NCBI GenBank assembly: GCA_024690825.1 | Contig: JAILOK010000081.1 | Span: 1-39,653, forward strand | From: Lachnospiraceae bacterium | GTDB taxonomy: Bacteria; Bacillota; Clostridia; Lachnospirales; Lachnospiraceae | Direction: 5' to 3' | DNA: 39,653 nt | Part shown: positions 4,045 through 30,282 of the stretch, piece after piece | Position numbering within the stretch: position 1 is the first letter of the stretch | Layout of the letters: each line of letters begins with the position of its first letter | The notes under the pieces: generated by a model | Told to the model about the DNA's origin: nothing | The model's database searches: none | Seen by the model: the letters and a program-made list of their open reading frames with translations, nothing else | Program-made: the position numbers and the translations under genes

Positions 4045-4074
4045 GTTAGTTACCGCTAACCACAGACGAGTATA
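4045..4074 (-). promoter_or_regulatory. metal-box operator 1 and -10 element of the MATE gene
   Basis: An exact GTTAG-N6-CTAAC inverted repeat (4045-4060, centre TTACCG) lies 8 bp downstream of a TATACT -10 (4074-4069) on the minus strand. The -35 is weak. A repressor bound here would cover the transcription start. Confidence 0.7.
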
Positions 4075-4132
4075 TATCATGTGTTTTTGACGGACCACTC
4101 CAAAATGCAATCACTGCTCCGATCTGCAATTA

Positions 4133-5863
4133 TTATGCCTGCAGCGAAACCATATGCGCGTAGGTCCCGCCTTTGTCCATGAGTGATGCATGATCCCCGC
4201 TTTCGATGATCTTTCCATCTGAAACGACGAGGATCTGATCTGCATCCTTTATTGTCTTAAGTCTGTGCGCTATGACAAGAAGAGTCTTGTCTTTGCAAAG
4301 TTCCGATATCGCCTCCTGTATGGCCCGCTCATTATCGGCATCCACGCTTGCAGTAGCTTCATCAAGTATCACTATGGGAGAATCTTTCAGGATACATCTT
4401 GCGATGGATATTCTCTGCTTTTCGCCGCCGGACAAAGATGCGCCGCCCTCTCCGATCACTGTGTCAAAGCCTTCCGGAAGCTGCATGATAAAATCATAGC
4501 ATCTTGCCTTTTTTGCAGCCTCTTCAACCTCTTCGCGTGTCGCGTCAGGGCGGCCTATCGCGATATTGTTATATACAGTGTCCTGGAAAAGATAGACCCT
4601 CTGGAATACCATACTGATATGATCCATAAGACTTCCTAAAGATACATTTCGTATATCTTCTCCCCTTACAAGTATCCGTCCATTCTTAACATCCCAGAAG
4701 CGGGCCAGAAGCGATGCTATGGTTGACTTTCCTCCGCCGGAAGGTCCGACAAGCGCTGTCATCTGTCCCTGTTTTACTTCAAAGGAAACATCTTTAAGCA
4801 CATCTTTATCGGTGTAAGCGAAGCTGACATTATCGTATGCGATCTCGACAGGACCGGATCCCGCGTCCACTGCGTTTGAAAGTTCAGTCCTTCCTTCATC
4901 CTTTAATTCCTCTGCTGCAAACACTTCTTCTATCCTGTCAAGACTTGCTTCTGTCACGGTAAGCCTTGCCATCTGGCCATAGTAACTCTTGATGGAAACA
5001 AACATATCAAAAAGGAACAGCGCCATACCGACCATATATACATCTGATATCTGACCTGCGTTAAAGAGATATGCACACAGTGCAAGCACCAGTGCGGTAC
5101 CTATTCCAAAAGTAAGGTACAATGCCCTTGCCCAGGGGCCGTATGCAACCTCAAAATCAATACTTTCCCTGCAGCTCTTTTCGAATTCATCCGTAAGTCT
5201 CTTCGACTTTTCTCCCAGCATGTTATATGACTTGATGATCCCGATCCCTTCCGCAAAATCAAGCACTTCTTCTGTCAATGACTCGCTGTCCTCCTGCTTT
5301 ATGACGGAATGCTTCATTGTGGTCTTTAACATGAGATTTCCGACTATGATAAATGCTGCGACGATCAGCAGGGATAACAGTCCAAGCCTTATATCCATCA
5401 CAAACATCATGACCGTCATTATTCCCTGGGAAATAATAAAGGTCACAAGTTCCGACAATACTCCCATACAGTTTTCTTCAATAAAAACCATATCCGTCGC
5501 AAGAACGGAACTTATCTTTCCCATGTTCCCTTCGGTAAAATAACCCATAGGAAGCTTCCTTAAGTGATCGCCGAGCCTTAAGCGCATATCGGCAAATACC
5601 ATATATCCGGTTGCAGATTGGAGCACATTGGAAGCATGTTCAAATACAGCCTGCAGGATAACGCTTGCCAGAACCGCGATACCAAGCAAAATGCATTTAT
5701 TCTTATCCATCTGTCCCTGCATAAACCAGCTTATACATAAAAAACAGAGTATCAAAGGTGCTTTCATCATGATCCCTTTTAGGAAGGCTGTCAGATAAGA
5801 GGCTCGTATCCTTCCCTTATACCTTCCTGTATTTTTTATAAGTCTGTGCATTATCTTTATCAT
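4133..5863 (-). CDS. ABC transporter, fused permease-ATPase, second subunit of heterodimer 1
   Basis: A 576-residue half transporter with six N-terminal helices (about residues 18-310) and a C-terminal ATPase domain. Walker A GPSGGGKST is at 373-381, the LSGGE signature at 477-481, and Walker B VILDEA at 497-502. The start is set at 5863 because GGAGG lies 7 nt upstream; the longer frame reaches into the preceding gene. Only 2 bp separate it from the stop of the partner subunit, so the two form a heterodimer operon. Type IV (exporter-fold) pairs include drug exporters and the siderophore importers IrtAB and YbtPQ. The metal box upstream of the pair favours a metallophore role, but direction of transport cannot be read from sequence. 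Confidence 0.9.
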   Translation of the reverse strand: MIKIMHRLIKNTGRYKGRIRASYLTAFLKGIMMKAPLILCFLCISWFMQGQMDKNKCILLGIAVLASVILQAVFEHASNVLQSATGYMVFADMRLRLGDHLRKLPMGYFTEGNMGKISSVLATDMVFIEENCMGVLSELVTFIISQGIMTVMMFVMDIRLGLLSLLIVAAFIIVGNLMLKTTMKHSVIKQEDSESLTEEVLDFAEGIGIIKSYNMLGEKSKRLTDEFEKSCRESIDFEVAYGPWARALYLTFGIGTALVLALCAYLFNAGQISDVYMVGMALFLFDMFVSIKSYYGQMARLTVTEASLDRIEEVFAAEELKDEGRTELSNAVDAGSGPVEIAYDNVSFAYTDKDVLKDVSFEVKQGQMTALVGPSGGGKSTIASLLARFWDVKNGRILVRGEDIRNVSLGSLMDHISMVFQRVYLFQDTVYNNIAIGRPDATREEVEEAAKKARCYDFIMQLPEGFDTVIGEGGASLSGGEKQRISIARCILKDSPIVILDEATASVDADNERAIQEAISELCKDKTLLVIAHRLKTIKDADQILVVSDGKIIESGDHASLMDKGGTYAHMVSLQA

Positions 5864-5865
5864 GA

Positions 5866-7599
5866 TCAGGCCTCCCTTACTTTCCATGTGCTTGCCGAAA
5901 CCGAAGCAACCCACAGTTTTTTATACTCCGGACAATCATTTACCAGTTTATCGTGAGTATCCGCCGCGATACATTTTCCTTCCTTCATCACGCAGATCTT
6001 ATCGGCATTTTTTATGGTCGAAAGCCTGTGGGCTATGACCAGCACCGTCTTGTCCTTTACTATCTCATCAAGTGCCGCATTCATCTTCTCTTCATTCTCG
6101 GGATCCATAAATGCCGTTGCTTCATCAAGGACTATGATCGGAGCATTCTTAAGGATCGCCCTTGCAAGCGAAATCCTCTGGCGCTCGCCTCCCGACAGCT
6201 GTTTTCCACCGTCACCCGCCTTTGTTTCTATACCGTCAGGAAGTCTTTCAAGGAACTCGTTACACTGAGCTCTTTGGGCAGCCTTAAGCACTTCCTCTTT
6301 TGTGGCATCCGGCCTGCCTATGAGGATGTTTTCATACAGGCTTGTATTAAACAAAAACTGTTCCTGCGAAACAAATGCCACCTGATCGTTAAGCGCTTCA
6401 AGAGACATGTCGGTAATATCCTGTCCTCCTATCCTTATGCTTCCTGAATCAAGATCGTAATAATGTACCAGAAGCTTTGCCAGTGTTGACTTTCCGCTTC
6501 CCGATTCACCAACAAGTGCGGTCGTAGTCCCCTGCTTAAGTGAAAAGTCTACACCGTGAAGTACCTCTGTATCCTCATAGCCGAAGTGAACATCCTTAAA
6601 TTCGACATTAAGATTTTCTCCCTTGAATCCGGATGTGCCTTCCTTAAGCGGAGGATGCTCCATCATCTTTTCAAGTTCCGCGATCTTGTAGTCAAGTGCC
6701 GGGAATTTTCCCGCAAAATTAAGCGCCTTCAGAACCGACGGTCCGACCGCAAAGGACATGCAGAATACCAGCACCATCCTGTCAAGCGTGACCGTCCCGC
6801 CGAGCACCATCATGGATCCAAAGGGCAGCATCAAAAGCACGAGACAGGGCAGGACGCTTGAATATATCGCCATCCAGGGCCAGCAGACCCTGTACCAGTC
6901 TATCGTGAAATCACGGTAGCTTTTTACCATGTCGCCGAAACGCTTATAAGAATCCCCGTCTTTATTAAATACCTTTACGACCTCCATTCCGTTCACATAC
7001 TCGATGATAGTATTATTCATCTTTGCAGCGGATTCATAATAGGCGTTCATCTTTTCAAATCCTGATTTCATCATCATGCCCATAGCGAACATCCCGACCA
7101 CGAGGGGAACCAGCGACAAAAGACCAAGTCTTAAGTCAAACACAAACATGAGGATTATGATGATGACGGGTATCGCTATATTTGCTATCCCCTCGGGAAT
7201 GGCATGAGCAAGAAGAAGTTCAACCTGGTCTATGTCATCCGTAAATACCTTCTTGATCCGTCCCGTGCCGAGTTCGGTTATATTTCCCAGCGGCTGTTTC
7301 TCAAGCTTTCCCTGCAGCGAAACCCTTAAGTTTTTCAGCGTGTTGTATGCACTGATATGTGAAAACGTAAGTCCCTGCACATAGGAAACCGAAAAGACGA
7401 TCTCACATACTGCAATGATCACGACCCTGACAAGAATAAAAGAAGCATCGATATGCTCACCGCGTGTGAGTGGAGATATGATCTGGTAAAGAAAGAAATA
7501 CGGTACGATATTTGCAATGATGCCTATAGACATCATGATCGTAGCCCACACGGTGTACTTTTTGTACTCTCCGATATAAGGAGATACTCGCTTGAACAT
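5866..7599 (-). CDS. ABC transporter, fused permease-ATPase, first subunit of heterodimer 1
   Basis: A 577-residue half transporter. The membrane domain covers about residues 15-300 and contains VELLLAHAIPEGIANI on the third helix region; its counterpart in pair 2 reads ETFIAHQLPDKTVAAV. The ATPase domain has Walker A GESGSGKST (364-372), LSGGE (468-472) and LDEATAFMDPENE (from 490). The catalytic Glu after Walker B is present, so this subunit should hydrolyse ATP. A GGAGG site fixes the start. The metal box at 7624-7639 lies 24 bp upstream, and a TetR gene precedes it on the same strand. Export of a drug or transport of a metallophore are both possible. Confidence 0.9.
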   Translation of the reverse strand: MFKRVSPYIGEYKKYTVWATIMMSIGIIANIVPYFFLYQIISPLTRGEHIDASFILVRVVIIAVCEIVFSVSYVQGLTFSHISAYNTLKNLRVSLQGKLEKQPLGNITELGTGRIKKVFTDDIDQVELLLAHAIPEGIANIAIPVIIIILMFVFDLRLGLLSLVPLVVGMFAMGMMMKSGFEKMNAYYESAAKMNNTIIEYVNGMEVVKVFNKDGDSYKRFGDMVKSYRDFTIDWYRVCWPWMAIYSSVLPCLVLLMLPFGSMMVLGGTVTLDRMVLVFCMSFAVGPSVLKALNFAGKFPALDYKIAELEKMMEHPPLKEGTSGFKGENLNVEFKDVHFGYEDTEVLHGVDFSLKQGTTTALVGESGSGKSTLAKLLVHYYDLDSGSIRIGGQDITDMSLEALNDQVAFVSQEQFLFNTSLYENILIGRPDATKEEVLKAAQRAQCNEFLERLPDGIETKAGDGGKQLSGGERQRISLARAILKNAPIIVLDEATAFMDPENEEKMNAALDEIVKDKTVLVIAHRLSTIKNADKICVMKEGKCIAADTHDKLVNDCPEYKKLWVASVSASTWKVREA

Positions 7600-7623: not shown

Positions 7624-7654
7624 GTTAGATATGACTAACTCTATGTTTTTTATA
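7624..7654 (-). promoter_or_regulatory. metal-box operator 2 and -10 element of ABC pair 1
   Basis: GTTAG-N6-CTAAC (7624-7639, centre ATATGA) lies 9 bp downstream of TATAAA (7654-7649). The -35 is not convincing. A short GC stem (AGCCG/CGGCT, about 7654-7672) just upstream could terminate the tetR transcript. Confidence 0.65.
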
Positions 7655-7682
7655 TAGCCGCCCTTCGACGGCTTATAAATCT

Positions 7683-8648: not shown

Positions 8649-9938
8649 TCATTCATCAACGATGCACTCCGTATACATAAGCGGTATGGTGGACGCAAGC
8701 TGCTTTGAATGATCTACTCTGAATCCGTTTTTCTCCAAAAAATCCCTGTAACCCTCTGCATCCCATTTAGCCTCGAATTTCACTCCGGCGAATGAAAGCG
8801 CCTTGCTGAAGACTGCGCTCATCTTCCGCGAATTATCATGTATGAAGTTCGGTGCGATAAGCAGTCCGCCCTTTTTCAAAACCCTTCTTATCTCAGACAA
8901 CACCTTTTCCGGTTCAGGGATGATGTGCAGCGCATTGGCTATAATTACCACATCAAAGCTTTCATCATCATATTGCAGAGTAGATGCATCAGCCCGTTCA
9001 AAATCCAAGTTGGAAGGGACTATTCCCCTTCTTGCCATAGTAAGCATCTTCTCAGAGAAATCCGTTGCAACCGTTCTTTTGGTTTCGCTCGCAACCTGTT
9101 TGGCAATTATCCCGGGACCGGTAGCCAGTTCAAGAACTTCCTTATCCTTCACCATTGTTCGTATTCGCTTATACATAGCTTCATATGCATGCTTATTCCC
9201 GGGGGTTCCTGTAACAAACCCGGTGTATACAGGAGCGAATCGGTCCCAGATATTCTCGTTTTTTGTATTCAGGATCCTCATATCTTCAAGAACGATCCCG
9301 CTCTTCCATTCCTTTGGAATATTTTCAGGCTCATAGACCATTCCATACAGTTCCACGCCATCCTCAAAGTGTTGCGTGACTACGCACTTCATCCCAAGAT
9401 GTTCGTATTTATCCTTTTTAATATGCGCATCAGTGTCCAGAACAACCGGAACCGCCTGTCTTCGTCCTTCCTCAAATGCAATCTCCACAGCCTTTCGCAT
9501 AAAGCCTTTGCCCTGGTACTCTTTTCTGACAGCAACCAAACCGACATAGATATACGGTATCTCCAATTTTGAAAGAACAGCCCCGTAACTCTTTCCCGCA
9601 TGACCACAACCCTTCGCCATCTTGATCAGATGACCGGCATTAACACACCTGGGCATCGTTTTCAGCAAATCTGCCGCCGACCTCGGACTCATACTTACCC
9701 GGGGGTTTTTAAACGCAATGAACGCCTCATGCTCATCGCTTGTTGAGTAAAGCACACGTTCATTGATCGCCATCCGTACATAAGAGCAGATATAGTCGCT
9801 TATCGCCTGCCTGCTTTTCCCGAGATAAGCCATGCCGAATTCTGACTCCCCATATTCAAAGTCTGCAAAAGCGTCACCTATATCCCGTATCTCGTCCTCT
9901 CTTAAAGAATTGATCTTAACCGGCTTATATGTCGTCAT
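8649..9938 (-). CDS. GNAT acetyltransferase - SAM methyltransferase fusion protein
   Basis: A 429-residue two-domain protein. Residues 1 to about 210 form a GNAT N-acetyltransferase with the acetyl-CoA loop VRKEYQGKGFMRKAVEIAFE. Residues 230-429 form a class I methyltransferase with VLELATGPGIIAKQVA (SAM motif I), VATDFSEKMLTMA and the late motif ALHIIPEPEKVLSEIRRVLKKGGLL. GGAGG 7-9 bases before the ATG at 9938 decides the start; an upstream in-frame ATG overlaps the ribosome site. It lies 42 bp after the alpha/beta hydrolase gene and probably ends that operon. The substrate is unknown; a small amine or peptide-like compound that is acetylated and methylated would fit. Confidence 0.85.
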   Translation of the reverse strand: MTTYKPVKINSLREDEIRDIGDAFADFEYGESEFGMAYLGKSRQAISDYICSYVRMAINERVLYSTSDEHEAFIAFKNPRVSMSPRSAADLLKTMPRCVNAGHLIKMAKGCGHAGKSYGAVLSKLEIPYIYVGLVAVRKEYQGKGFMRKAVEIAFEEGRRQAVPVVLDTDAHIKKDKYEHLGMKCVVTQHFEDGVELYGMVYEPENIPKEWKSGIVLEDMRILNTKNENIWDRFAPVYTGFVTGTPGNKHAYEAMYKRIRTMVKDKEVLELATGPGIIAKQVASETKRTVATDFSEKMLTMARRGIVPSNLDFERADASTLQYDDESFDVVIIANALHIIPEPEKVLSEIRRVLKKGGLLIAPNFIHDNSRKMSAVFSKALSFAGVKFEAKWDAEGYRDFLEKNGFRVDHSKQLASTIPLMYTECIVDE

Positions 9939-9980
9939 GTATTCTCCTCCCATGATCTAATAAGAACAATATGGATAACT

Positions 9981-10775
9981 CTACTTCTCTCTGCACACTT
10001 TTTTTATACCTCTGACAAACTTCTCGGGATTAAACGGTGCCAGTCCGCCATGACCGACATCATATATCTTCCTGAATCTCGTGTGGGGAAATGCCTTTTT
10101 TATATATGCCACATCCGCCCGACGTTCCTTTACTTCTTTTTCCGCAACCCAATACTCGATATGCCTGCATTCCGTATGTATCTCATCCGGCATCGAGTAG
10201 TTGTTACAGGATTCAAAAGTTTTCCAGATTGTCTTTGCACTTATCATCCTGAGAACCTTTGCCGCATACCAAACATCTTCCTCTGACAGATCATCCGTGG
10301 CAAAAGCCTTTTCCAAAAGCTTTGCACCACCAATCTTGCCGGCGCTTATAAGGAGAAAATCTTTTATTGCAATAAATCTCGTAATGATCCACGGGAGCTG
10401 ATATGGGGTTATCCCACCATCAATGATCGCGTTTTGTATATGTACATTGTTATCTGCCAGCATTCTTGTAACAATGCTTCCTCCCATGGAACATCCGTAC
10501 AGGCAGGTAACATCATCAATGCCATTTCCGATAAGCCATTTTTCCAACTCGTCTGCTATTTCTTCAATACCGGTAAAATCATCCTTGCTGTCCGGATCAT
10601 ATCCCGGTAGTGCCGGTATGATCAGATGGTATTCTTTCTCCAACTGTGGGATTACATACTCGAAATAATCCCACATTACAATTGAGGGATGTATCAGGAC
10701 AACTGTCTGTTCATTTTCCTTCCCGAATTCGTGTATCGTCATTTTATTCACATCAGTGCTTTGAAGTGATATCAT
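9981..10775 (-). CDS. alpha/beta-hydrolase fold protein
   Basis: A 264-residue alpha/beta hydrolase. An early strand VVLIHPSIVMWDYF supplies the oxyanion region. The nucleophile elbow is GCSMGG with Ser96, and the catalytic His is in DVGHGG (about residue 242). The acid is probably in the region before the last strand. Its ATG overlaps the stop of the ATC-hydrolase-like gene by 4 bp (ATGA), so I start at 10775 rather than at the longer frame's 10808. Coupled translation with the ATC-hydrolase-like protein suggests successive steps on one substrate, perhaps an ester or thioester. The exact activity cannot be assigned. Confidence 0.85.
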   Translation of the reverse strand: MISLQSTDVNKMTIHEFGKENEQTVVLIHPSIVMWDYFEYVIPQLEKEYHLIIPALPGYDPDSKDDFTGIEEIADELEKWLIGNGIDDVTCLYGCSMGGSIVTRMLADNNVHIQNAIIDGGITPYQLPWIITRFIAIKDFLLISAGKIGGAKLLEKAFATDDLSEEDVWYAAKVLRMISAKTIWKTFESCNNYSMPDEIHTECRHIEYWVAEKEVKERRADVAYIKKAFPHTRFRKIYDVGHGGLAPFNPEKFVRGIKKVCREK

Positions 10776-11389: not shown

Positions 11390-11416
11390 GTTTTCCTTTC
11401 TTCCTTACTTCATCTG

Positions 11417-12095: not shown

Positions 12096-12148
12096 GTTAG
12101 TAGCGACTAACCTTTGCTCATTATAGTTAGAGGGAAGTAACATGTCAA
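12096..12148 (-). promoter_or_regulatory. consensus promoter with two metal boxes (operator 3)
   Basis: A perfect TTGACA (12148-12143) and TATAAT (12125-12120) are separated by exactly 17 bp. A one-mismatch box fills the spacer (GTTAG-N6-GTAAC, 12126-12141). An exact GTTAG-N6-CTAAC (12096-12111, centre TAGCGA) lies 8 bp downstream of the -10. The boxes are 30 bp apart centre to centre. The layout is the same as at the feo promoter (30230-30282). It should be strong when free and tightly shut when bound. Confidence 0.85.
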
Positions 12149-15704: not shown

Positions 15705-15760
15705 GTTAGTTATTGCTAACCATTCGTTAAAAAAATAGTCTCTATATCTGAAAATGTAAA
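15705..15760 (-). promoter_or_regulatory. metal-box operator 4 and promoter of ABC pair 2
   Basis: An exact GTTAG-N6-CTAAC (15705-15720, centre TTATTG) lies 11 bp downstream of a possible TATTTT -10 (15737-15732), with TTTACA as -35 (15760-15755) and 17-bp spacing. The -10 is weaker than at the other sites. Confidence 0.65.
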
Positions 15761-16120: not shown

Positions 16121-16123
16121 CGA

Positions 16124-18348: not shown

Positions 18349-18379
18349 GTTAGTTATTTCTAACTATGTACCGATTATA
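18349..18379 (-). promoter_or_regulatory. metal-box operator 5 and -10 of the LCM/ICMT operon
   Basis: GTTAG-N6-CTAAC (18349-18364, centre TTATTT) lies 9 bp downstream of a perfect TATAAT (18379-18374) and 30 bp before the start codon. The -35 region falls in a hairpin and is weak. Confidence 0.75.
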
Positions 18380-18380: not shown

Positions 18381-18400
18381 GCTCCGCTTTTCAGCGGAGC
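18381..18400. terminator. perfect 8-bp hairpin in the LCM/ICMT leader
   Basis: GCTCCGCT and AGCGGAGC enclose a 4-nt loop. It lies between the two metal-box promoters upstream of the LCM gene. No U-tract follows on the minus strand, so it may be the end of the OhrR transcript, an attenuator for a transcript from the upper promoter, or simply a processing site. Confidence 0.4.
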
Positions 18401-18432: not shown

Positions 18433-18483
18433 GTTAGTTGCTTCTAACTTGTTCATAATAACACCTGCCTACTGTAAAATCAA
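18433..18483 (-). promoter_or_regulatory. metal-box operator 6 with second promoter
   Basis: A second exact GTTAG-N6-CTAAC (18433-18448, centre TTGCTT) lies 84 bp upstream of operator 5 centre to centre. A possible promoter, TTGATT (18483-18478) with 17-bp spacing to TATTAT (18460-18455), places the box just after the -10. It would give a longer transcript of the LCM operon. Confidence 0.6.
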
Positions 18484-19567: not shown

Positions 19568-19599
19568 ATATTATATTTGGTCAAATATAATATTGTCAA
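19568..19599 (-). promoter_or_regulatory. peroxidase-ohrR promoter with large palindrome
   Basis: TTGACA (19599-19594), an 18-bp spacer and TATAAT (19575-19570) lie on the minus strand. They are covered by a 26-bp perfect palindrome (19568-19593), 12-bp arms around GT, the left arm being ATATTATATTTG. An OhrR/MarR dimer bound here would block polymerase. The 218-bp gap from 19502 to 19719 holds no gene. Confidence 0.75.
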
Positions 19600-22034: not shown

Positions 22035-22066
22035 AACCATGATCTCCTCTCGTTTTTATTTTGATG

Positions 22067-22092
22067 CAATAGTTAGATATGTCTAACTATTG
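22067..22092. promoter_or_regulatory. metal-box operator 7 upstream of DUF6110/P-ATPase
   Basis: GTTAG-N6-CTAAC (22072-22087, centre ATATGT) is part of a longer perfect palindrome with 11-bp arms CAATAGTTAGA/TCTAACTATTG. It lies 32 bp before the first DUF6110 ATG. No clear -10/-35 pair was found. Confidence 0.7.
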
Positions 22093-22141: not shown

Positions 22142-23659
22142 TTATTTCACACACCTGAAATAAACTATCGATCCGTCTGTATTATACTCAACCTCGCGGT
22201 AGAGCCTGTGAAGTATCTTTAAAAGCTGCGTTTCCGTGGGGAAAGGCGGGGTGAACCACCCCTTCTTTGAAAGTACCCTGTGCACCAGCCAGTCAGTTCT
22301 CCTGTTTTTGCCCTTGATATAAAAGCATGCTATGAACATTCCGCCGGGTTTGAGAACACGCCAGGTTTCGCGGAACGCTTTTTTCTTTTCGGGGAAGGCG
22401 TGAAATCCGTTCATGCTTAAGACTATATCGCAATCTGCATCCGAAAGCGGAAGCTTTCCCACATCACCCTGAACAAATGAAATGTGACCGCAGTCACCAA
22501 GCCTTGCTTTTGCCTGTTCAAGCATGTCGGTGCTGTAATCAAGGCATGTGATCTTTGAAGCGGAAAGTGATCTCCACTTCTTTTCGGTAAATACCGCTGT
22601 TCCCACAGGAACATCAAGAAGATTGCCGTTAAAATCATCAGGGATGTATTCCAGTACCCTTTTTGCCACATCGTTATCATCAGTTCCGTCCCAGAAGATC
22701 TTCATATAAAGCTTACTCCAGATATTTCCCTGGGTAAGTACTTCATCATAGATATTCTTCGATGATTTATAAGCGCTTCTGATCTTATCCGTTACCGGTT
22801 CCGCTTTTGCCAGTTTCTCATGTCTTGCCCGGTACTGTGTATCTTCTCTTTCGTCATACCCGTCGAAAGGTGCATTCGGATCGTGGGGTTTCTGCTTCTT
22901 CAGGCTGTTGCAGACCTGATCTTTATGGGCAAACACGAAATCAAGGTCATCCGACCAGCCCGTGTGTCCGGTGATCACTTTGGGACTGATACCTCTGTCG
23001 CGCAGGATTTTTTCAAGCTTTACCAGTGACCGTTTTGACAGTTCATTGTCCTCGGCCAGAGCATTGATAAAGCTGTATCCTCCGTCTGCACCGAACCAGA
23101 TCGAATCGCCTGTAAAGAGATATGCATCATCTATGAGATACACCATGTGTCCCCAGGTATGTCCGGGCACAAGTATTGCCTCCACTTTGATATCGTCTAT
23201 ATAAAATACATCACCGTCATTTAAGAGTTTTCTTTCATTGTCACTCTTTACCAGGGGAAGCTTATACATTCCGAAGATAACCCTTCGTCTCTTTTCACCC
23301 GTCATGTATTTATTCTCGATCCCGCTGATATAGAGCTTTGCATCCTTAAAAAGGCCGTCGCTGTCACGCTCAACGGCACCCACGTGATCCGTGTCCTGAT
23401 GTGTGATAAGAATGTGCTTTATTGCAGACGGGCTGATATCCAGCCAGCTCATCTTCTCCGCAAGCCTTTCATAATTGTAGCCTGCATCGATCATGATGGT
23501 CGTCCCGTTTTTCGTATAAAAAAAGATATTCGCGATCCACTCACGGACACAGGCGGTATTGTCGTCTATCCATCCGGTGTTTAACGGCTTGAATATCTCC
23601 TTGCCGCGGTATCCCCACGACATGACCACTCTTTGAAAATTTGACGCTTTCCTGCTCAT
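22142..23659 (-). CDS. metallo-beta-lactamase-fold hydrolase fused to SAM methyltransferase
   Basis: A 505-residue two-domain protein. Residues 30-255 are an MBL-fold hydrolase: THQDTDHVGA (87-92; Asp replaces the second His of HxHxDH), PGHTWGH (167-171), FTGDSIWF (184-185) and GHTGW. Residues 300-505 are a class I methyltransferase with LLDVPVGTAVFTEK (motif I, unusual D-V-P-V-G), CLDYSTDMLEQAKARL and VLKPGGMFIACFY. GGGAGG eight bases before the ATG fixes the start. It lies only 18 bp after feoC, so it is cotranscribed with the feo genes. I know of no established function for this fusion; a thioester or lactone hydrolysis linked to methylation is possible. Confidence 0.85.
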   Translation of the reverse strand: MSRKASNFQRVVMSWGYRGKEIFKPLNTGWIDDNTACVREWIANIFFYTKNGTTIMIDAGYNYERLAEKMSWLDISPSAIKHILITHQDTDHVGAVERDSDGLFKDAKLYISGIENKYMTGEKRRRVIFGMYKLPLVKSDNERKLLNDGDVFYIDDIKVEAILVPGHTWGHMVYLIDDAYLFTGDSIWFGADGGYSFINALAEDNELSKRSLVKLEKILRDRGISPKVITGHTGWSDDLDFVFAHKDQVCNSLKKQKPHDPNAPFDGYDEREDTQYRARHEKLAKAEPVTDKIRSAYKSSKNIYDEVLTQGNIWSKLYMKIFWDGTDDNDVAKRVLEYIPDDFNGNLLDVPVGTAVFTEKKWRSLSASKITCLDYSTDMLEQAKARLGDCGHISFVQGDVGKLPLSDADCDIVLSMNGFHAFPEKKKAFRETWRVLKPGGMFIACFYIKGKNRRTDWLVHRVLSKKGWFTPPFPTETQLLKILHRLYREVEYNTDGSIVYFRCVK

Positions 23660-23677
23660 ATTATCGGCCTCCCGTAC

Positions 23678-23953
23678 TTACTTCACTACTTCCCACATCA
23701 CTCCCATGTTCTGAAATCCGCCCTCGGGCATACAGCCTGCACAGGTCTTGCCCCCTGTTGCACAGCCCGGACAGCTGCTGCAGGATTGACCCCCGCAGCC
23801 GCTGCCGGAAAAAACTATTCTCTTTATCACTCCGGTGCGTTCCAGAAATTCAATATACCGCTTTATCTTTTCCACCGGCATATCAAGTTCCGAAGAAAGC
23901 ATCTCCATTGTACGTGATCTTCCGTCTTTTAACAAATCTATCAGTTCGTTCAT
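23678..23953 (-). CDS. feoC: FeoC-like winged-helix protein with six-cysteine tail
   Basis: A 91-residue protein. The N-terminal 55 residues (MNELIDLLKDGRSRTMEMLS and on through KIKRYIEFLERTGVI) form a winged helix typical of FeoC. The tail carries six Cys in S-G-C-G-G, S-C-S-S-C-P-G-C and K-T-C-A-G-C, suited to bind an Fe-S cluster. The longer frame reading into the FeoB gene is not used; the ATG at 23953 lies 5 bp after the FeoB stop. Its ribosome site is weak, so it probably depends on coupling. FeoC is thought to control FeoB stability or expression in response to iron or oxygen. Confidence 0.85.
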   Translation of the reverse strand: MNELIDLLKDGRSRTMEMLSSELDMPVEKIKRYIEFLERTGVIKRIVFSGSGCGGQSCSSCPGCATGGKTCAGCMPEGGFQNMGVMWEVVK

Positions 23954-23958
23954 TTTTA

Positions 23959-25983
23959 TTACCAGATAAGAAGTCCTATGTAATAAGCGATACCTGCGAG
24001 AATCAGCGCCACTCCGGTGTAGTAAAGCGCGATCCTTGCGGTCCACTTGACTGAATGGGTTTCCTGATAGGTAGCGGCTAACGCCACGATACAGGGCATG
24101 TTGAAGGTCATGGCAAAGATGAGAGCCAGTGCCTCGGGTTTGGGTATATTCGCAACGAGCAGTTCGTTTATGTTTTCCGCAGCTGCACCGCTCACAACCG
24201 AGCCCACAGATATTGTGCCGGCTCCTGTATAGATCGTGCTCAGGACTCCAAGCGCCCCCTCTTTTCCAAGGCTTGATGCGATAAATGCCATAAAGGTCTG
24301 CCAGCCCATGCCGAAGAGCTTTGTGACCGGTTCAATAAAATGGCCGACCCTGTAGAGAATGCTGGCCGTGATATCTCCGGATGAAGTATAGGAAAGCAGC
24401 CAGAATACCAAAGCCACGATAACAACAACCTTCAGGGCCCTGACAAAGGTTTCCTTTGTCCGTCCGAATACATATCTGAATAGGGCGCCCCACTTCGGTT
24501 TATGATAAGGCGGCAGCTCCATGATCATACCGCACCTGTCCTCCGCTTTTACAAGCGATCCCCCGAAGATCTTCGCAGTGATCCACATGTGGAGGATCAT
24601 GACTAAAAGGATCACCACGATGATCACCGGCGTCCACGCGCCAAAGAAAATGGTTGAAAGCATCGGTATGACTGCCCATGCCGCGCCACAGGGAACCGCC
24701 CATGCCAGAGCGATGGTCAGGACCTTCTGCCCCCAGTTATCTATCACTCTGGTTCCGGCAGCGCCTCCCATCGTACAGCCGAAACTGATAAGAAAGGGCA
24801 TCACCGACTTACCCTGAAGCCCGAACTTTGCCATCGTATTATCAAACACATAGGAAATACGCGCCATGACGCCGATCTCCTCAAGCAGTCCGAATACTAA
24901 AGTCACTCCGAATACAAATCCGAGCATCTGCACTATGAATGCCACGGAACGTATTAGGACATCGCAGAGGACCGATGCAATAAATGCCGGACATCCGATA
25001 TTTAAGAGTGCTTCATTTAACGGATCCGGGATGCCTCCTATGAGCTGTCCTATGCCCATGAGAGGGAGGGCCGGAATAAATGAGGCGATCAGTCCCAGGA
25101 CTATGGTCAGTATCACGACCGGCTTTCCCCAGATATGGTGGGTTATGAGCCTGTCAAATTTCCCGAGTGATATTTTTGTTTCCGTGCGCTTTGTCACTCC
25201 CGAAAGAAGCTCGTCTATCCATGCAAATTTTCTTTCACCGGTAAGGACAACTCCCTTGTCTACTGCAGAGAGTGCTGTGTCAAAAGCATTTTTGTCGCTG
25301 ACGGAAAGGGCTGCTTTGATCTTTGCGATCACGGGAGCGTCCCCCTCGACAGCCTTCGCGGCAAGCCACACATTTGAATAACCCGGTATCACATCAGCAG
25401 GTATCATGGCTTTAACTCTTGTGTATGTCTCAATCTCTTCATAACGCTTTTCAAGGGATCCCGGATCCAGGGACGTCTTTTCCCGCACCGCGCGTTCAAG
25501 GGCCCTGTAAAATCCATCGTAAGCCTTTGTGTCCGGAGCCGAGAAGGATTCAACCGGTATGCCAAGCTTCTTCTCAAGTTCTTTGGCGTTTACGCTTTTT
25601 CCCTGCTCATCCGCAACATCACTCATGTTTAACAAAAGAAAACAGGGAACGGTTATCCCTGCAAAATCAGCGAGCATATAAAGGCTTCTTTCAAGCTGCG
25701 AGCTGTCTGCGAGAATACAGATAACATCCGCTTTCCCGGATGCGATATAGTCGCGTGTTATCATCTCTTCATCGGAATTTGCCGACAGACTGTAGGTTCC
25801 GGGAAGATCCGCGACAAGGTAATGCACCCCGTTATGTTCAAAATTACCTTCTTTCTTTTCTACTGTTTTTCCGGGCCAGTTTCCCACATGCTGTCTTAAA
25901 CCTGTAAGTGCGTTAAAAAGCGTGGACTTACCGGAATTGGGCTGACCCAGAAGAGCTATCACTGTTTCATTTTTCTCTGTCAT
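23959..25983 (-). CDS. feoB: divergent FeoB-like GTPase transporter
   Basis: A 674-residue FeoB homologue with an N-terminal G domain: GQPNSGKST (13-21), DLPG (59-62), NMSD (119-122). The membrane part has about 10 helices. Its gate regions differ from the usual FeoB: FGCTMGGAAGTRVIDNW (about 401-417) replaces G-x-G-C-G-V-P-G...R-T-I-E, and WAVPCGAAWAV (428-438) replaces IPCGAKVP. The two Cys are retained. The ATG overlaps the FeoA stop by 4 bp. It is clearly a paralogue rather than a recent copy of the 804-residue FeoB. Different metal choice (for example Mn2+) is plausible, since some FeoB paralogues move manganese. Confidence 0.9.
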   Translation of the reverse strand: MTEKNETVIALLGQPNSGKSTLFNALTGLRQHVGNWPGKTVEKKEGNFEHNGVHYLVADLPGTYSLSANSDEEMITRDYIASGKADVICILADSSQLERSLYMLADFAGITVPCFLLLNMSDVADEQGKSVNAKELEKKLGIPVESFSAPDTKAYDGFYRALERAVREKTSLDPGSLEKRYEEIETYTRVKAMIPADVIPGYSNVWLAAKAVEGDAPVIAKIKAALSVSDKNAFDTALSAVDKGVVLTGERKFAWIDELLSGVTKRTETKISLGKFDRLITHHIWGKPVVILTIVLGLIASFIPALPLMGIGQLIGGIPDPLNEALLNIGCPAFIASVLCDVLIRSVAFIVQMLGFVFGVTLVFGLLEEIGVMARISYVFDNTMAKFGLQGKSVMPFLISFGCTMGGAAGTRVIDNWGQKVLTIALAWAVPCGAAWAVIPMLSTIFFGAWTPVIIVVILLVMILHMWITAKIFGGSLVKAEDRCGMIMELPPYHKPKWGALFRYVFGRTKETFVRALKVVVIVALVFWLLSYTSSGDITASILYRVGHFIEPVTKLFGMGWQTFMAFIASSLGKEGALGVLSTIYTGAGTISVGSVVSGAAAENINELLVANIPKPEALALIFAMTFNMPCIVALAATYQETHSVKWTARIALYYTGVALILAGIAYYIGLLIW

Positions 25984-26213
25984 GCTCCCTTGCCCTCCTC
26001 AACCTCAATGAGGCTGCATTCCGATCTGTTCAGGGCGATCATGGTGTCTCGTGAATAGACAAGAAGCGGTCTGTTCTTTTCGTTTTTGATGACCGTAACC
26101 GGACATCCGGGGGTGAGCCCGATCGATGTGATCCTGCTTATAAATCTCGGATCACCGTTTACGGAAGTTATCACTCCCTTTGATTCCTTTTTCATTTCCG
26201 ACAGTTTTTTCAT
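25980..26213 (-). CDS. feoA: FeoA-domain protein (third copy)
   Basis: A 77-residue SH3-like FeoA protein. The family pattern is visible in VNGDPRFISRITSIGLTPGCPVTV, with the G-L-T-P-G turn, and in LLVYSRDTMIALNRSECSLIEV. Its start is preceded by AGGA at about seven bases. The stop overlaps the divergent FeoB start (ATGA), so this FeoA is likely the dedicated partner of that FeoB, while the copies at 29711-30164 serve the other. Confidence 0.88.
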   Translation of the reverse strand: MKKLSEMKKESKGVITSVNGDPRFISRITSIGLTPGCPVTVIKNEKNRPLLVYSRDTMIALNRSECSLIEVEEGKGA

Positions 26214-26234
26214 CGTTTCCTAACGTTCCTCCTG

Positions 26235-26606
26235 TTATTCTTTTTCGTATGAAAGCATCGTATATCCGGCATCTGCCGTTATTTTTGCAAGCTCTCCTTC
26301 GGTTTCTTCATGTTTTGAACGAAGTATGACCTCATTTTTTCCCACATCAGCCTCCGCCCATCTTCCATCCGATGCATTGAAAGCATTTTCGATCCTGCGG
26401 GCGCAGTTTGCGCAGTGCATTCCGTCCACGCACAGCACATATGTATACGGATAATTGTTTTTATTTTTGTCTTTAACCCTTACCCTTTTGTCTGCAGGAT
26501 CGTGTCCCCCGCAGCAGGACGACCCGTATCTGATCGTTCTCACAGTGCCGTACAGGGCCGCTGTTATTATGATGATAAGAGCAATGACAACTATTGCGTT
26601 TCCCAT
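26235..26606 (-). CDS. membrane-anchored HMA-domain protein
   Basis: A 123-residue protein with an N-terminal membrane helix (about residues 4-22), a short cytoplasmic Cys segment (YGSSCCGGHD), and a C-terminal HMA ferredoxin-like domain. The metal-binding motif is GMHCANC. Such domains normally bind soft or divalent metal ions and pass them to P-type ATPases. It is inserted between the DtxR-type regulator and the third FeoA, an unusual place. AGAGGA precedes the ATG. It may feed or buffer metal near the FeoB pore or the downstream P-ATPase, which has lost its own CxxC domain. Confidence 0.85.
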   Translation of the reverse strand: MGNAIVVIALIIIITAALYGTVRTIRYGSSCCGGHDPADKRVRVKDKNKNNYPYTYVLCVDGMHCANCARRIENAFNASDGRWAEADVGKNEVILRSKHEETEGELAKITADAGYTMLSYEKE

Positions 26607-26630
26607 TTTTTGTCCTCTTTTATTGGCTGC

Positions 26631-26651
26631 AGGGGTGCGCGAAGCACCCCT
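26631..26651. other. strong intercistronic hairpin between dtxR-type gene and HMA gene
   Basis: AGGGGTGC and GCACCCCT (8-bp stem) enclose GCGAA. Flanking GGCTGC/GCAGCC sequences could add an outer stem. No U-tract follows, so it may be an RNA-processing or stability element that sets different expression for the two halves of the feo operon. Confidence 0.5.
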
Positions 26652-26697
26652 TTCATCAGCTGTGGCTTTTGCAGCCTTTTATGGGTATAGGAGAGAG

Positions 26698-27078
26698 TTA
26701 AGCGAAATGTTTTTTCAGGCATCTGTAGGTTTCATCGCTGATCACATGCTCTATGAGGCAGGCATCTTTATCTGCAGTATCCTCATCCACGCCTATCCCT
26801 ATCAGCGTATTTTTTAAGAATAAGTGTTTTCTGTATACCTTTTGGGCGACGGCCATTCCTGTATCGGTGAGCAGTATGTGCCCTTTTTCGCCCAGGCTTA
26901 TCAGATCTCGGTCGCGCAGTTTTTTCACGGTATCACTGACAGTAGGCTTCGTCACTCCAAGTTCCCGTGCCAGATCCACCGACTTCGCGTATCCTTTCCT
27001 TTCATGCAGGATCAGGATCCTTTCCAGATAATCGTTTGTTGAGTTTTTCCTAAGCATATCCCCCGTCTGTCTTCCCAT
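26698..27078 (-). CDS. DtxR/MntR-family metal-dependent repressor
   Basis: A 126-residue regulator with an N-terminal winged helix (about 14-70; recognition helix in TKPTVSDTVKKL) and a helical dimer/metal domain. Residues D16, E19, H85, E110 and H111 fall at exactly the spacing of MntR ligands D8, E11, H77, E102 and H103. The position of MntR E99 is Cys107, as in iron-type DtxR (C102). It is shorter than MntR and lacks any SH3-like domain. The start at 27078 overlaps the stop of the Cys-rich peptide by one base (TGATG). Encoded inside the feo operon, it is my best candidate for the protein that binds the GTTAG-N6-CTAAC boxes. Confidence 0.88.
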   Translation of the reverse strand: MGRQTGDMLRKNSTNDYLERILILHERKGYAKSVDLARELGVTKPTVSDTVKKLRDRDLISLGEKGHILLTDTGMAVAQKVYRKHLFLKNTLIGIGVDEDTADKDACLIEHVISDETYRCLKKHFA

Positions 27079-27251
27079 CACGATCTTCCCCGGCAGGATG
27101 AACACGCTTTACAGTGTGCACAGTTTCCTCCGCAGGAGGATATGCCTCTTTTTTTATCCCGGATCATGGTACGGATAATGAGTACCACAACCGCTATGAG
27201 TATGAGAGATATGATCATCGTTCCGAGATTAGCGATAAACCATGCAGTCAT
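27078..27251 (-). CDS. FeoB-associated Cys-rich membrane protein
   Basis: A 57-residue peptide, MTAWFIANLGTMIISLILIA onward, with a single membrane helix (about 5-27). A basic stretch (RTMIRDKKRG) and a five-Cys tail (S-S-C-G-G-N-C-A-H-C-K-A-C-S-S-C) follow. This is the PF12669 type that regularly accompanies FeoB in Firmicutes. AAGGAG lies six bases before the ATG. It begins 19 bp after the 804-residue FeoB and overlaps the DtxR-type start by one base. The thiolates probably handle Fe2+ at the membrane's inner side. Confidence 0.9.
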   Translation of the reverse strand: MTAWFIANLGTMIISLILIAVVVLIIRTMIRDKKRGISSCGGNCAHCKACSSCRGRS

Positions 27252-27270
27252 CTTCTGTCTCCTTAAAATT

Positions 27271-29685
27271 TCAGGCGGTCTTTACCTTTGATTCCTTGAT
27301 GGTCAGCTTGTCTGCCTCTTTATATTTCTTGAATAAGAGCATATATATGATCACCACCAGTGCAGCAACCGCAAACACCAGACCCGGTACGCTTATATTA
27401 CCCGTAAACAGACCTCCGAACTGGTTGATCATGAGAGCTATGACATAGGCAAATCCGCACTGGTAAGCAATAGCAAACCATGTCCATTTCGGATTGTTCA
27501 TTTCGCGCTTGATAGCTCCAATAGCTGCAAAGCAGGGCGCGCACAGCAGGTTGAAAACAAGGAAGGAAAATCCGGTAACACCGGTAAACGCTGCTGCAAG
27601 CGCCTGCCATGCTGTCATTTCTCCGCTGCCGTAAAGGATACCCATTGTTCCCACGATGTTTTCCTTTGCGACAAGTCCTGTGATGGATGCAACGGCAGCC
27701 TGCCAGTTGCCCCATCCCAAGGGTATGAATATCCACGCGATCAGATTGCCTATCCTTGCAAGGATTGACAGTTCAAGCTCATCCTCGGCAAGCATCCTGA
27801 AGCCCTCTGCCGTAAATCCGAAGAAGGATGTGAACCATACAACAATGGTGGATAAAAGGATGATCGTTCCGGCCTTTTTTATGAAGGACCATCCGCGCTC
27901 CCACATTGAACGAAGAACATTTCCAAGTGTGGGCATGTGGTAGGCGGGAAGCTCCATTACGAAGGGCGCCGGATCTCCCGCAAACATCTTCGTCTTTTTA
28001 AGCATGATGCCGGAAACAACGATCGCGGCCATGCCGATGAAATAAGCTGATGTTGAAACCCATGCGGATCCGCCGAATATGGCGCCCGCGATCATTGCGA
28101 TGAAGGGCACCTTGGCTCCGCAGGGGATAAAGGTTGTTGTCATGATCGTCATTCGTCTGTCGCGTTCATTTTCGATCGTACGGCTTGCCATGACTCCGGG
28201 CACTCCGCATCCCACTCCGATCAGCATGGGAATAAATGATTTTCCCGAAAGACCAAATCTCCTGAAGATACGGTCAAGGACAAAAGCGATACGGGCCATA
28301 TAGCCGCAGGCTTCAAGAAAGGCAAGCATCAGGAACAGCACGAGCATCTGGGGGACAAATCCAAGTACTGCTCCTACACCTGCCACTATTCCGTCAAGTA
28401 TGAGACCTTTGAGCCAGTCGGCTGCGCCGGCCGCATCAAGACCTGATTCCACGATCGCGGGAATACCGGGTATCCATGTGCCGTATTCGGCAGGATCGGG
28501 CTCATCTCCTATTGCCTCCACAGTCTTCAGAGCCTCGTTGTAATCCTCGATCGATGCTGTCTCTTCCGAGATCTCAAGCGTTTCTTCATCCTCTGCTTCA
28601 TAAGTGAAGTCTCCTTCGGGGGCTGCGCCGTTTTCTTCGACATAGGCATCGTATCCGTCAACTATGGCGGAAGCTGCAGCATATTCTTCAGCTATTTCTT
28701 CGTATCCTCCGTCCATTCCGAAAAGATGGAAACCGTCGCCGAAGATGCAGTCATTCGTAAAATCTGTTGCAGGTGCTCCTACGCCAACCATTGCAACCCA
28801 GTAAACCGCAAACATGACTGCCACAAAGATGAACAGACCCAGGATACGGTTGGTCACCACCTTGTCGATCTTATCGGATGTGGTGAGCTTTCCGGCATTT
28901 TTCTTCTTATAACAGGACTTTATGACCTCTGCGATATATACATACCTTTCATTGGTGATGATGGATTCTGCGTCATCATCAAGTTCCTTTTCCGCTGCCT
29001 TTATATCATTTTCAATGTGAGACAGCGTCCCTTCCGGGATCTTCATCTGCTCGAGCACCTTGTCATCACGTTCAAAAATCTTTATCGCATACCATCTCTG
29101 CTTCTCTTCGGGCATATCATGTACTACCGCTTCCTCGATGTGAGCTATGGCGTGCTCGACAGGACCCGAAAATCTGTGCTGCGGAACAGTCTTTGTTCCT
29201 TTTGCAGCCTTCATGGCTTCTTCTGCAGCCTCGGTTACGCCGTCACCCTTAAGCGCCGAGACCTCAACGACCTTGCATCCAAGCTGCCTCGACAGCTCAT
29301 CCTTGTCTATTTTGTCACCGTTCTTTTTTACGACATCCATCATGTTGACGGCAGCCACAACCGGTATTCCAAGTTCCGTAAGCTGCGTGGTCAGATACAG
29401 ATTTCTCTCAAGGTTGGTTCCGTCTATGATATTGAGTATCGCATCCGGCCTTTCGTTTATGAGGTAATTTCTCGCGACCACTTCCTCCAGTGTATAGGGA
29501 GAAAGCGAATAGATACCGGGAAGGTCGGTTATTATGACATCATCATGTTTCTTAAGTTTTCCTTCCTTTTTTTCAACCGTTACACCGGGCCAGTTTCCGA
29601 CAAACTGGTTGGATCCGGTAAGTGCATTGAACAGTGTTGTCTTTCCGCTGTTCGGATTACCTGCAAGCGCGATCCTTAAACTCAT
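27271..29685 (-). CDS. feoB: FeoB ferrous iron transporter with acidic loop insertion
   Basis: An 804-residue canonical FeoB. G domain motifs are GNPNSGKTT (9-17), DLPG (54-57) and NMMD (114-117), followed by the helical GDI domain. Gate motifs are standard: GVGCGVPGVMASRTIENERD (from 490) and FIPCGAKVP (519-527). Between the first and second membrane helices lies an extra extracytoplasmic segment, residues about 325-405, very rich in Glu and Asp (for example AEDEETLEISEETASIED). It may capture cations outside the membrane. AAAGGA precedes the ATG. It follows two FeoA genes and is followed by the Cys-rich peptide, as expected for a main Fe2+ uptake operon. Confidence 0.95.
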   Translation of the reverse strand: MSLRIALAGNPNSGKTTLFNALTGSNQFVGNWPGVTVEKKEGKLKKHDDVIITDLPGIYSLSPYTLEEVVARNYLINERPDAILNIIDGTNLERNLYLTTQLTELGIPVVAAVNMMDVVKKNGDKIDKDELSRQLGCKVVEVSALKGDGVTEAAEEAMKAAKGTKTVPQHRFSGPVEHAIAHIEEAVVHDMPEEKQRWYAIKIFERDDKVLEQMKIPEGTLSHIENDIKAAEKELDDDAESIITNERYVYIAEVIKSCYKKKNAGKLTTSDKIDKVVTNRILGLFIFVAVMFAVYWVAMVGVGAPATDFTNDCIFGDGFHLFGMDGGYEEIAEEYAAASAIVDGYDAYVEENGAAPEGDFTYEAEDEETLEISEETASIEDYNEALKTVEAIGDEPDPAEYGTWIPGIPAIVESGLDAAGAADWLKGLILDGIVAGVGAVLGFVPQMLVLFLMLAFLEACGYMARIAFVLDRIFRRFGLSGKSFIPMLIGVGCGVPGVMASRTIENERDRRMTIMTTTFIPCGAKVPFIAMIAGAIFGGSAWVSTSAYFIGMAAIVVSGIMLKKTKMFAGDPAPFVMELPAYHMPTLGNVLRSMWERGWSFIKKAGTIILLSTIVVWFTSFFGFTAEGFRMLAEDELELSILARIGNLIAWIFIPLGWGNWQAAVASITGLVAKENIVGTMGILYGSGEMTAWQALAAAFTGVTGFSFLVFNLLCAPCFAAIGAIKREMNNPKWTWFAIAYQCGFAYVIALMINQFGGLFTGNISVPGLVFAVAALVVIIYMLLFKKYKEADKLTIKESKVKTA

Positions 29686-29710
29686 TTTTTTATCTTCCTT
29701 TCTTTTGCTT

Positions 29711-29932
29711 TTACTGTACTTCGACCATCTCCGCGTCTGCTTTGCGGATAGACAGCTCGTAATTTCTTACATTTATCTCAATAGGATCACCTAAGGGAGC
29801 CACCTTGCGCACGAATACATCCGTGTTTTTCGTGATACCCATATCCATGATCCTGCGCTTTGTTGCGCCCTCTCCATGAAGTTTTACTACAGTGGCCGTT
29901 TCTCCTACCTTTACATCTCTCAGTGTTTTCAC
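29711..29932 (-). CDS. feoA: FeoA protein (second copy)
   Basis: A 73-residue FeoA with GTG start. The SH3-like fold is marked by VGETATVVKLHGEGATKRRI, MDMGITKNTDVFVRKVAPLG and EINVRNYELSIRKADAEMVEV. A GGGAGA ribosome site lies about 10 bases upstream. It is 26 bp ahead of the 804-residue FeoB and is the likely cytoplasmic partner of that transporter. Confidence 0.92.
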   Translation of the reverse strand: MKTLRDVKVGETATVVKLHGEGATKRRIMDMGITKNTDVFVRKVAPLGDPIEINVRNYELSIRKADAEMVEVQ

Positions 29933-29951
29933 TTTTTCGTTTCTCCCTTCT

Positions 29952-30164
29952 TTACACCATTATCTTTTTTGCCAGTTCTTCGCTGACAGCCACCCGGCTT
30001 TCCTTGACCTTTATGATCAGATTTTTACCGACCGAATTAATGACGCTTACCTGTCCTCCGACATTAAAGCCAAGATCCTCCAGATGTTTTTTTGTTTCAG
30101 GATTTCCTCCGATCTTTTTGATGATCTGTGTCTGTCCTGCTTCCGCATAGATCAGTGGCAGCAT
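29952..30164 (-). CDS. feoA: FeoA protein (first copy)
   Basis: A 70-residue FeoA starting MLPLIYAEAGQTQIIKKIGG. The family core is KKHLEDLGFNVGGQVSVINSVG and LIIKVKESRVAVSEELAKKI. GGGAGG with 5-nt spacing selects the ATG at 30164; the longer frame to 30191 is not needed. It is the first gene after the double-box promoter and so heads the longest operon in the window, which may run through two FeoB genes to the MBL-methyltransferase. Confidence 0.9.
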   Translation of the reverse strand: MLPLIYAEAGQTQIIKKIGGNPETKKHLEDLGFNVGGQVSVINSVGKNLIIKVKESRVAVSEELAKKIMV

Positions 30165-30194
30165 TTTTTCCTCCCTGATAAGTATTAACATTCG

Positions 30195-30282
30195 GTTAGT
30201 CTAAACTAATCCGCAGTCATAAATAAGCGGTTAGAATTAACTAACCGTCGTTTATTATAGTTAGCATTAACTAACATGTCAA
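30195..30282 (-). promoter_or_regulatory. feo promoter with three metal boxes (operators 8-10)
   Basis: TTGACA (30282-30277) and TATAAT (30259-30254) are separated by 17 bp on the minus strand. Box 10 (30260-30275, centre CATTAA) fills the spacer. Box 9 (30230-30245, centre AATTAA, flanked by C-G/C-G) lies 8 bp after the -10. A one-mismatch box 8 (GTTAG-N6-CTAAT, 30195-30210) lies 35 bp further down. Boxes 9 and 10 are 30 bp apart centre to centre. No other gene lies in the 158 bp between 30165 and 30322. Confidence 0.88.

Follow-up and report, generated by a model that had tools for sequence, protein, structure and literature searches.

What ties a ferrous uptake (feo) gene cluster to ABC transporter pairs, a P1B-ATPase, methyltransferases and hydrolases on one bacterial contig? 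The question is raised by a 39,653-nt stretch of a Lachnospiraceae bacterium (contig JAILOK010000081.1), which was analysed at full length and is referred to here as the window; the features discussed lie at 4,045-30,282. Units of these kinds are preceded by an inverted repeat, GTTAG-N6-CTAAC (the box), which an original prediction had described as the operator of a seven-unit regulon. The box, its excess, its fixed arm spacing, its placing over promoters, its conservation and genes for DtxR-type regulators are all present in the DNA. From the sequence evidence, the box is very probably the operator of an Fe(II)-responsive repressor of the DtxR family.

The exact box occurs nine times in the window, whereas shuffled sequences had a mean of 0.03 and none of 100 shuffles reached nine. 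Allowing one mismatch gave 11 boxes (0.59 expected), and the extra pair, at 12126 and 30195, are the two copies that the original prediction had named as mismatched. On the count it had contradicted itself, giving both "eight exact and two one-mismatch" and nine exact copies; the latter figure is correct. All 11 boxes are intergenic with respect to the genes called in this analysis, which bears out the earlier claim that the repeat is confined to intergenic space. A two-mismatch scan of the window was uninformative (13 found, 10.84 expected). The boxes and the units behind them are as follows.

4045..4060, exact box before the MATE gene (2646-4028) and the AraC gene (1641-2624)
7624..7639, exact box before ABC pair 1 (5866-7599, 4133-5914)
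12096..12111, exact box 8 bp downstream of the -10 of the methyltransferase (MTase)/ATC hydrolase operon (8649-12061; MTase, ATC hydrolase, alpha/beta hydrolase, MTase)
12120..12148, minus strand, promoter of that operon: TTGACA (12148-12143), 17 bp, TATAAT (12125-12120)
12126..12141, one-mismatch box occupying the -35/-10 spacer of that promoter
15705..15720, exact box before ABC pair 2 (13901-15664, 12165-13919)
18349..18364, exact box, gene-side member of the LCM pair of boxes, before LCM (17540-18319), PEMT/ICMT (17020-17526) and a membrane open reading frame (ORF; 16516-17016)
18433..18448, exact box, the more upstream of the LCM pair, 6 bp downstream of TATTAT (TTGATT-17-TATTAT, 18483-18455)
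22072..22087, exact box before DUF6110 (21795-22040) and P1B-ATPase (19720-21795)
22142..30191, minus strand, feo unit: FeoA, FeoA, FeoB, DtxR, HMA, FeoA, FeoB, a small Cys-rich ORF and a metallo-beta-lactamase (MBL)-methyltransferase fusion
26698..27105, minus strand, DtxR-family regulator of 135 aa inside the boxed feo operon, the candidate box-binding protein
30195..30210, one-mismatch box, third in the feo group
30230..30245, exact box 8 bp downstream of the feo -10
30254..30282, minus strand, feo promoter, TTGACA-17-TATAAT, with 12 of 12 consensus bases
30260..30275, exact box occupying the feo -35/-10 spacer

We take 22142..30191 to be one co-transcribed operon; no further box at up to one mismatch lies inside it, down to 22142. 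The first ATG, at 30191, is probably not the FeoA start; by eye, a GGAGG precedes an ATG 27 bases on, so that the box at 30195 may lie clear of the coding sequence.

The whole draft genome (2,947,628 bases, 138 contigs) was scanned with the reversed pattern of the box as control. This revealed 20 exact boxes, heading 17 units, and no reversed ones. The 11 exact boxes beyond the window are also intergenic according to ORF maps, giving 20 of 20. Such a scan had been proposed with the original prediction, and its outcome favors a shared operator. The notion of a "seven-unit regulon" thus holds as to the operator, in view of genome counts, spacing and conservation; the number does not, because at least 17 units carry the box, seven of them in the window. 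When the arms GTTAG and CTAAC were allowed to be 0-16 bp apart, 21 pairs were found in the genome, 20 with a gap of six and one with a gap of seven; the reversed control gave six pairs, all spacings summed. Isolated one-mismatch sites were dropped as evidence (7 additional sites genome-wide vs 15 in the control), and the ten fixed bases therefore carry nearly the whole signal. The outer G and C are fixed in all 20 exact boxes, the inner G is present in one and the inner C in none; on these inner positions a strict IdeR site was rejected. Boxed units outside the window include the following; the labels LCM, ATC hydrolase and MBL-methyltransferase denote sequence families only.

Contig C9, ATC hydrolase
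Contig C11, feoB, two boxes
Contig C15, second DtxR gene, cut by the contig end, one exact and one one-mismatch box
Contig C42, alpha/beta hydrolase and third ABC pair
Contig C80, second DUF6110/P1B-ATPase and second MBL-methyltransferase fusion
Contig C108, ECF transporter
Contig C111, fourth ABC pair
Contig C128, HlyD/ABC/FtsX transporter

One isolated one-mismatch site (C127:67189; L131) lies 31 bp ahead of a FeoA domain in an 828-codon frame.

The feo and MTase/ATC hydrolase promoters share one arrangement, TTGACA-T-box-TATAAT, followed after 8 bp by a second box; the one-mismatch copy at 12126 fills a promoter spacer and thus holds a key position. Across the genus, 11 distinct promoters, these two included, carry a box in the -35/-10 spacer, and eight of the 11 have a second box (up to one mismatch), located 8 bp after the -10 in six cases, 9 bp in one and 12 bp in one. 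The reversed box did not occur in this arrangement in 669 kb of partly overlapping stretches. For 79 distinct exact boxes (strands pooled), a TATAAT-like hexamer was present 8, 9 or 10 bp upstream in 9, 9 and 7 cases (2.4, 2.1 and 2.1 expected) and immediately 3′ of the box in 8 cases (2.0 expected). The earlier claim that five units carry the box 8-9 bp after a -10 was confirmed by eye: MATE 8, ABC pair 1 9, MTase 8, LCM (18349) 9 and feo 8. No clear -10 was seen by eye before the boxes of ABC pair 2 and DUF6110. Because the boxes lie over promoter sites, a bound protein should block RNA polymerase, and this placing is consistent with the repression proposed in the original prediction.

Conservation was analysed in 24 other genomes of the genus and 16 genomes representing as many other families of the order (draft assemblies, partly incomplete). 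The genus genomes contained 90 exact boxes against 12 reversed; the other families showed a weak excess (39 against 27), and the genome studied here has the most exact boxes among the 41. Forty stretches around boxes (37 from the genus, 3 from the order), a subset of all boxes, were read. In the 37 genus stretches, a regulon-family gene began no more than 350 bp from 28 of 48 exact boxes, compared with 508 of 7400 random positions (6.9%). With our genome included, an exact box was found up to 400 bp upstream of 9/15 LCM, 7/18 DUF6110 and 10/27 FeoA matches; over the same distance the eight-base core preceded LCM, DUF6110 and FeoA 10, 9 and 12 times in forward form and 0, 1 and 0 times reversed. 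All 10 FeoA cases fall among the 17 matches of at least 64% identity, and the 10 matches below 50% have none. The box also recurs ahead of ABC-pair orthologues in relatives, and in another family (L054) it lies between divergent FeoA and DtxR genes. Of seven distant relatives of DtxR with named hosts (Erysipelotrichaceae, Thomasclavelia, Clostridia), L035 carries an exact box 37 bp ahead of its DtxR match and the other six have none. Together with the gene content, these relatives suggest that the host belongs to Bacillota. Four species (L112, L114, L116, L117) have an extra one-mismatch box ~60-106 bp before FeoA2, just ahead of or within the end of the first FeoA.

Which protein would bind the box? 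The genome encodes three DtxR-type proteins (window, C5 and C15), plus two weaker PF01325 matches in longer frames; the DtxR-type protein named in the original prediction therefore stands as a candidate, with two paralogues beside it. The window DtxR matches PF01325 and PF02742, with no third domain and no C-terminal SH3-like domain. Its recognition helix, GVTKPTVSDTV, presumably places Pro-Thr at the positions of Pro39-Thr40 in IdeR. These two are IdeR residues named in passages of PMC8464063. By eye, its metal ligands combine an MntR-like Asp and Glu in the first helix with an IdeR-like Cys-x-x-Glu-His. The motif [DE]AC-x-x-EH is present in 28 of 32 DtxR rows (28 of the 31 readable ones, L018 being cut off) and missing in L062, L160 and L161. 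In these three DtxR-type proteins (L062:5311-5691, L160, L161), encoded beside boxes and feoB, Trp-x-x-Gly-Tyr replaces Cys-x-x-Glu-His, and they may be metal-blind. FUR-family proteins were found in 9 of 25 genus genomes, including our own (one match of 64.9 bits); 16 of 25, among them 7 of the 11 best assemblies, have none.

Co-occurrence did not single out one paralogue; in the tree, DtxR proteins of this genus fall into mixed clades, with uneven support and long branches. Genome G015, with 11 boxes and one PF01325 match, was considered as a clean one-DtxR case and rejected, because its contig C26 has a cassette resembling that of the second DtxR gene, with a 26-codon remnant of this gene. 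A DtxR-type binder in general is supported by a published gel-shift precedent, EqbA of the Streptococcus equi equibactin locus. Passages of PMC3672683 describe its operator as a 36-bp palindrome with core GTTAGATGTATCTAAC, state that fragments devoid of the palindrome gave no gel shift, and report that, on deletion of eqbA, eqbE transcript levels rose 13-fold and iron accumulation nearly doubled. As described there, the GTTAG-N6-CTAAC core is identical to the box.

We infer from these patterns which paralogue binds, the Fe(II) signal, repression and the direction of the response. The regulator would be of the short DtxR type without SH3, EqbA-like in its site and (by eye) its metal ligands. 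When Fe(II) is plentiful, metal-loaded dimers would bind, one per box, covering the -35/-10 spacer and/or the transcription start, and the units would be off. When iron is short, the dimers would be released and 17 units turned on: feo ferrous uptake, the siderophore-importer-like ABC pairs, the P1B-ATPase/DUF6110 pairs, the ECF and HlyD/ABC/FtsX transporters, a regulator gene, and the methyltransferases and hydrolases.

Several observations weigh against this scheme. In relatives, 20 of 48 boxes lack a regulon-family gene start within 350 bp; several of these are at contig ends, and others lie by flavodoxin, a pyruvate-formate-lyase-like protein, ion channels or DUF3793. Genome G019 has a strong DtxR match and no exact box, and a box with at most one mismatch lies in the 300 bp upstream of only 5 of 32 DtxR genes. 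The EqbA palindrome, as described, spans 36 bp, and its flanks are not conserved here. Lastly, the window DtxR is nearest by sequence to MntR and has Asp where IdeR has Met. The best PDB match is E. coli MntR (58.7 bits), followed by Bacillus MntR, and the best NCBIfam model is also MntR (90 bits, below its cut-off of 153).

These matches, together with the MntR-like Asp of the first helix and the binding of EqbA with Fe2+, Zn2+ and Mn2+ present (passages of PMC3672683), point to a variant in which the operator and repressor family are the same and the signal is Mn(II), as for MntR, or several metals. We consider this quite unlikely, because the boxed genes known by name concern iron (feo three times; MntH and other manganese importers were not searched for), a Zn/Mn-type ZnuA gene adjacent to feo lacks its own box, and the DtxR carries the iron-type Cys. 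A review (passages of PMC10317159) links Met10 and Cys102 to the choice of Fe2+.

The ABC subunits were ranked by phmmer against PDB, and single-chain half-transporters were compared; two-repeat eukaryotic transporters outscore these, with both halves matching. For the first subunits of the four boxed pairs, IrtA and YbtP/YbtQ were on top, 38-62 bits above MsbA or Sav1866 (pair 1, 285 bits vs MsbA 245; pair 2, 323 vs 261; C42, 290 vs 228; C111, 286 vs Sav1866 248). The second subunit of pair 1 had Sav1866 first (313 bits; YbtQ 272). Two other ABC proteins had no IrtA/Ybt entry among their best 60 matches; the first lies in a 12-kb stretch without a box at up to one mismatch except that of the next unit, and the promoter of the second is off the contig. 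The boxed pairs are best read from this ranking as siderophore-importer-like, and ordinary multidrug exporters are disfavored. The "exporter-fold transporters" of the original prediction are thus better described by their first subunits, which rank nearest to siderophore importers, and their link to iron uptake becomes less odd; YbtPQ and IrtAB are described in passages of PMC10967856 as importing with an exporter fold.

DUF6110 directly precedes a P1B-ATPase with an HN motif (LHN) at both loci of the genome and is present in 17 of 25 genus genomes. DUF6110 ahead of a P1B6-type ATPase is a published pairing (passages of PMC9374683; PMC13043812). Here in particular, some units might be activated in high iron, for efflux or storage, instead of repressed. 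No clear sigma-70 promoter lies under the box at 22072, and the DUF6110-related PacL proteins serve metal efflux in mycobacteria (passages of PMC9374683); however, this box is 47 bp ahead of the coding start, within the reach of a repressor, and in C. difficile Fur represses FezA/FezB, which are required for iron-storing ferrosomes, in high iron (passages of PMC12574912). Activation therefore seems improbable to us. A full-consensus TTGACA-18-TATAAT without a box (19570-19599, minus strand) lies ahead of glutathione peroxidase and MarR genes, which may thus fall outside the DUF6110/P1B-ATPase unit. That another regulator, such as a TetR or MarR protein encoded beside boxed units, uses the box is very improbable: five boxed units have a TetR gene immediately upstream (ABC pair 1, C42, C80, C108 and C111), but the same box heads units without such a neighbor (feo, LCM, C15), and its geometry and sequence match DtxR-type sites.

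Paired boxes of the putative DtxR-type operator can enclose a further element, a hairpin.

18382..18399, minus strand, CTCCGC-N6-GCGGAG hairpin between both LCM boxes
7656..7673, minus strand, AGCCGTC-type hairpin with one G-T pair, 16 bp farther upstream than the box of ABC pair 1 (positions read by eye)

The genome has four copies of CTCCGC-N3-8-GCGGAG, and three of them sit between two boxes (LCM, C11 feoB, C15 DtxR). The 25 genomes contain 58 such hairpins, all of which were examined, vs 9 reversed. A box with at most one mismatch lies no more than 100 bp from eight of the 58, and each of these eight is flanked by boxes on both sides, at 17-18 bp on the gene side and 21-49 bp on the other, with box-to-box pitches of 84, 84, 84, 83, 82, 78, 71 and 99 bp. 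They belong to six genomes (window 18382-18399, L017:1489, L018:272, L187, L193, L206, L209, L211). By eye, most of these cassettes have a TATAAT-like hexamer after the hairpin and a TTGATT-like -35 before the first box. The genes behind them are LCM (twice), feoB, DtxR, DUF6110, DUF3793, an HMA protein 60% identical to that of the window, and the G015 DtxR remnant. The G015 cassette on C26 (L238, ~1063-1879) comprises three boxes with a hairpin, then the remnant, and beyond it another box and a DUF3793 frame that shares 70% identity with its G010 counterpart; a second DtxR copy thus existed formerly, and the cassette may have switched its target gene. An AGCCGTC... stem occupies the equivalent place ahead of ABC pairs 1 and 3. 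When hairpins of any sequence were sought, 9 of 151 box sides had one (1.25 expected); at least one of the nine is a neighboring box, and two are one cassette counted from both its boxes. A plain terminator was rejected as a general explanation of the CTCCGC hairpin, because a T-tract (simple rule) lies beside only 4 of the 58. It may instead be bound by a second protein or fold in a leader RNA.

A bolder extension, which we regard as rather doubtful as a whole, joins two ideas. The boxed LCM, ATC hydrolase, alpha/beta hydrolases and MBL-methyltransferase might form an iron-starvation pathway that imports foreign thiazoline-type siderophores through the IrtAB/YbtPQ-like pairs and releases the iron by opening or altering these siderophores, and the hairpin-paired boxes might act as a two-promoter switch with a second regulator or leader-RNA layer. 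Siderophore handling by LCM, ATC hydrolase and MBL-methyltransferase is a guess.

Other features of the window were noted. Between FeoB and the MBL-methyltransferase fusion lies a 91-codon Cys-rich ORF (23678-23953, minus strand), FeoC-like by eye, with no Pfam match. The ZnuA-type binding protein (519 aa; 30323-31882, minus strand) adjoins feo. ParE-type toxin genes are located at 849-1543, with an unmatched 125-aa neighbor, and at 15773-16378, with a Phd/YefM-like neighbor below the Pfam cut-off. A 1966-aa protein (32498-38398, minus strand) has a sub-threshold DUF7482 as its sole match.

The breadth of the regulon, the box pairs around a conserved hairpin, and the tie of methyltransferases and ATC hydrolases to iron are new here; no description of a genome-wide GTTAG-N6-CTAAC regulon was found in the open-licence literature. 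According to passages of a review (PMC10317159), most low-GC Gram-positives use Fur for iron and DtxR proteins for manganese. This genus, low-GC Gram-positive by inference, appears to run iron genes with short, MntR-sized DtxR proteins. The single described operator of EqbA would thereby be extended to a genome-wide regulon, and the box tags LCM, ATC hydrolase, MBL-methyltransferase, DUF3793 and DUF6110/P1B-ATPase as putative iron genes, giving each a first testable hypothesis.

The system may be compared with several known ones. Its DUF6110/P1B-ATPase units have the gene order and HN motif of the PacL-like DUF6110/P1B6 pairs, as far as these are described. FezA/FezB, in the passages cited, are iron-repressed pump genes under Fur, whereas here the pump is under a DtxR-type box. 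The ABC pairs differ from IrtAB/YbtPQ in that no IrtA-type reductase domain is found in them and Sav1866 is the closest match of the second pair 1 subunit. The window DtxR resembles MntR in size, closest sequence and first-helix Asp and Glu; however, Cys replaces Glu in its ligand motif, and the boxed genes serve iron. IdeR has the half-site TTAGG-N4-CCTAA, with the geometry TTAG-N6-CTAA (passages of PMC8464063). This geometry, a winged helix-turn-helix regulator and iron uptake genes are shared with IdeR/DtxR as described; the near absence of the inner G/C, the fixed outer G/C and the short regulator without SH3 are not. Also close is EqbA, which passages of PMC3672683 describe as DtxR-like, without an SH3 domain, with the DtxR Cys kept and the Met absent; its authors regard its site as unlike other iron boxes, and its locus also encodes a putative alpha/beta hydrolase along with an ABC pair of the YbtP/YbtQ kind. 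The window DtxR likewise lacks SH3, has the DtxR-type Cys and has the Met replaced (ligands by eye). EqbA, as described, drives a siderophore synthetase, none of which was seen in this window, and has one described operator, compared with 17 units, spacer boxes and hairpin-flanking box pairs here.

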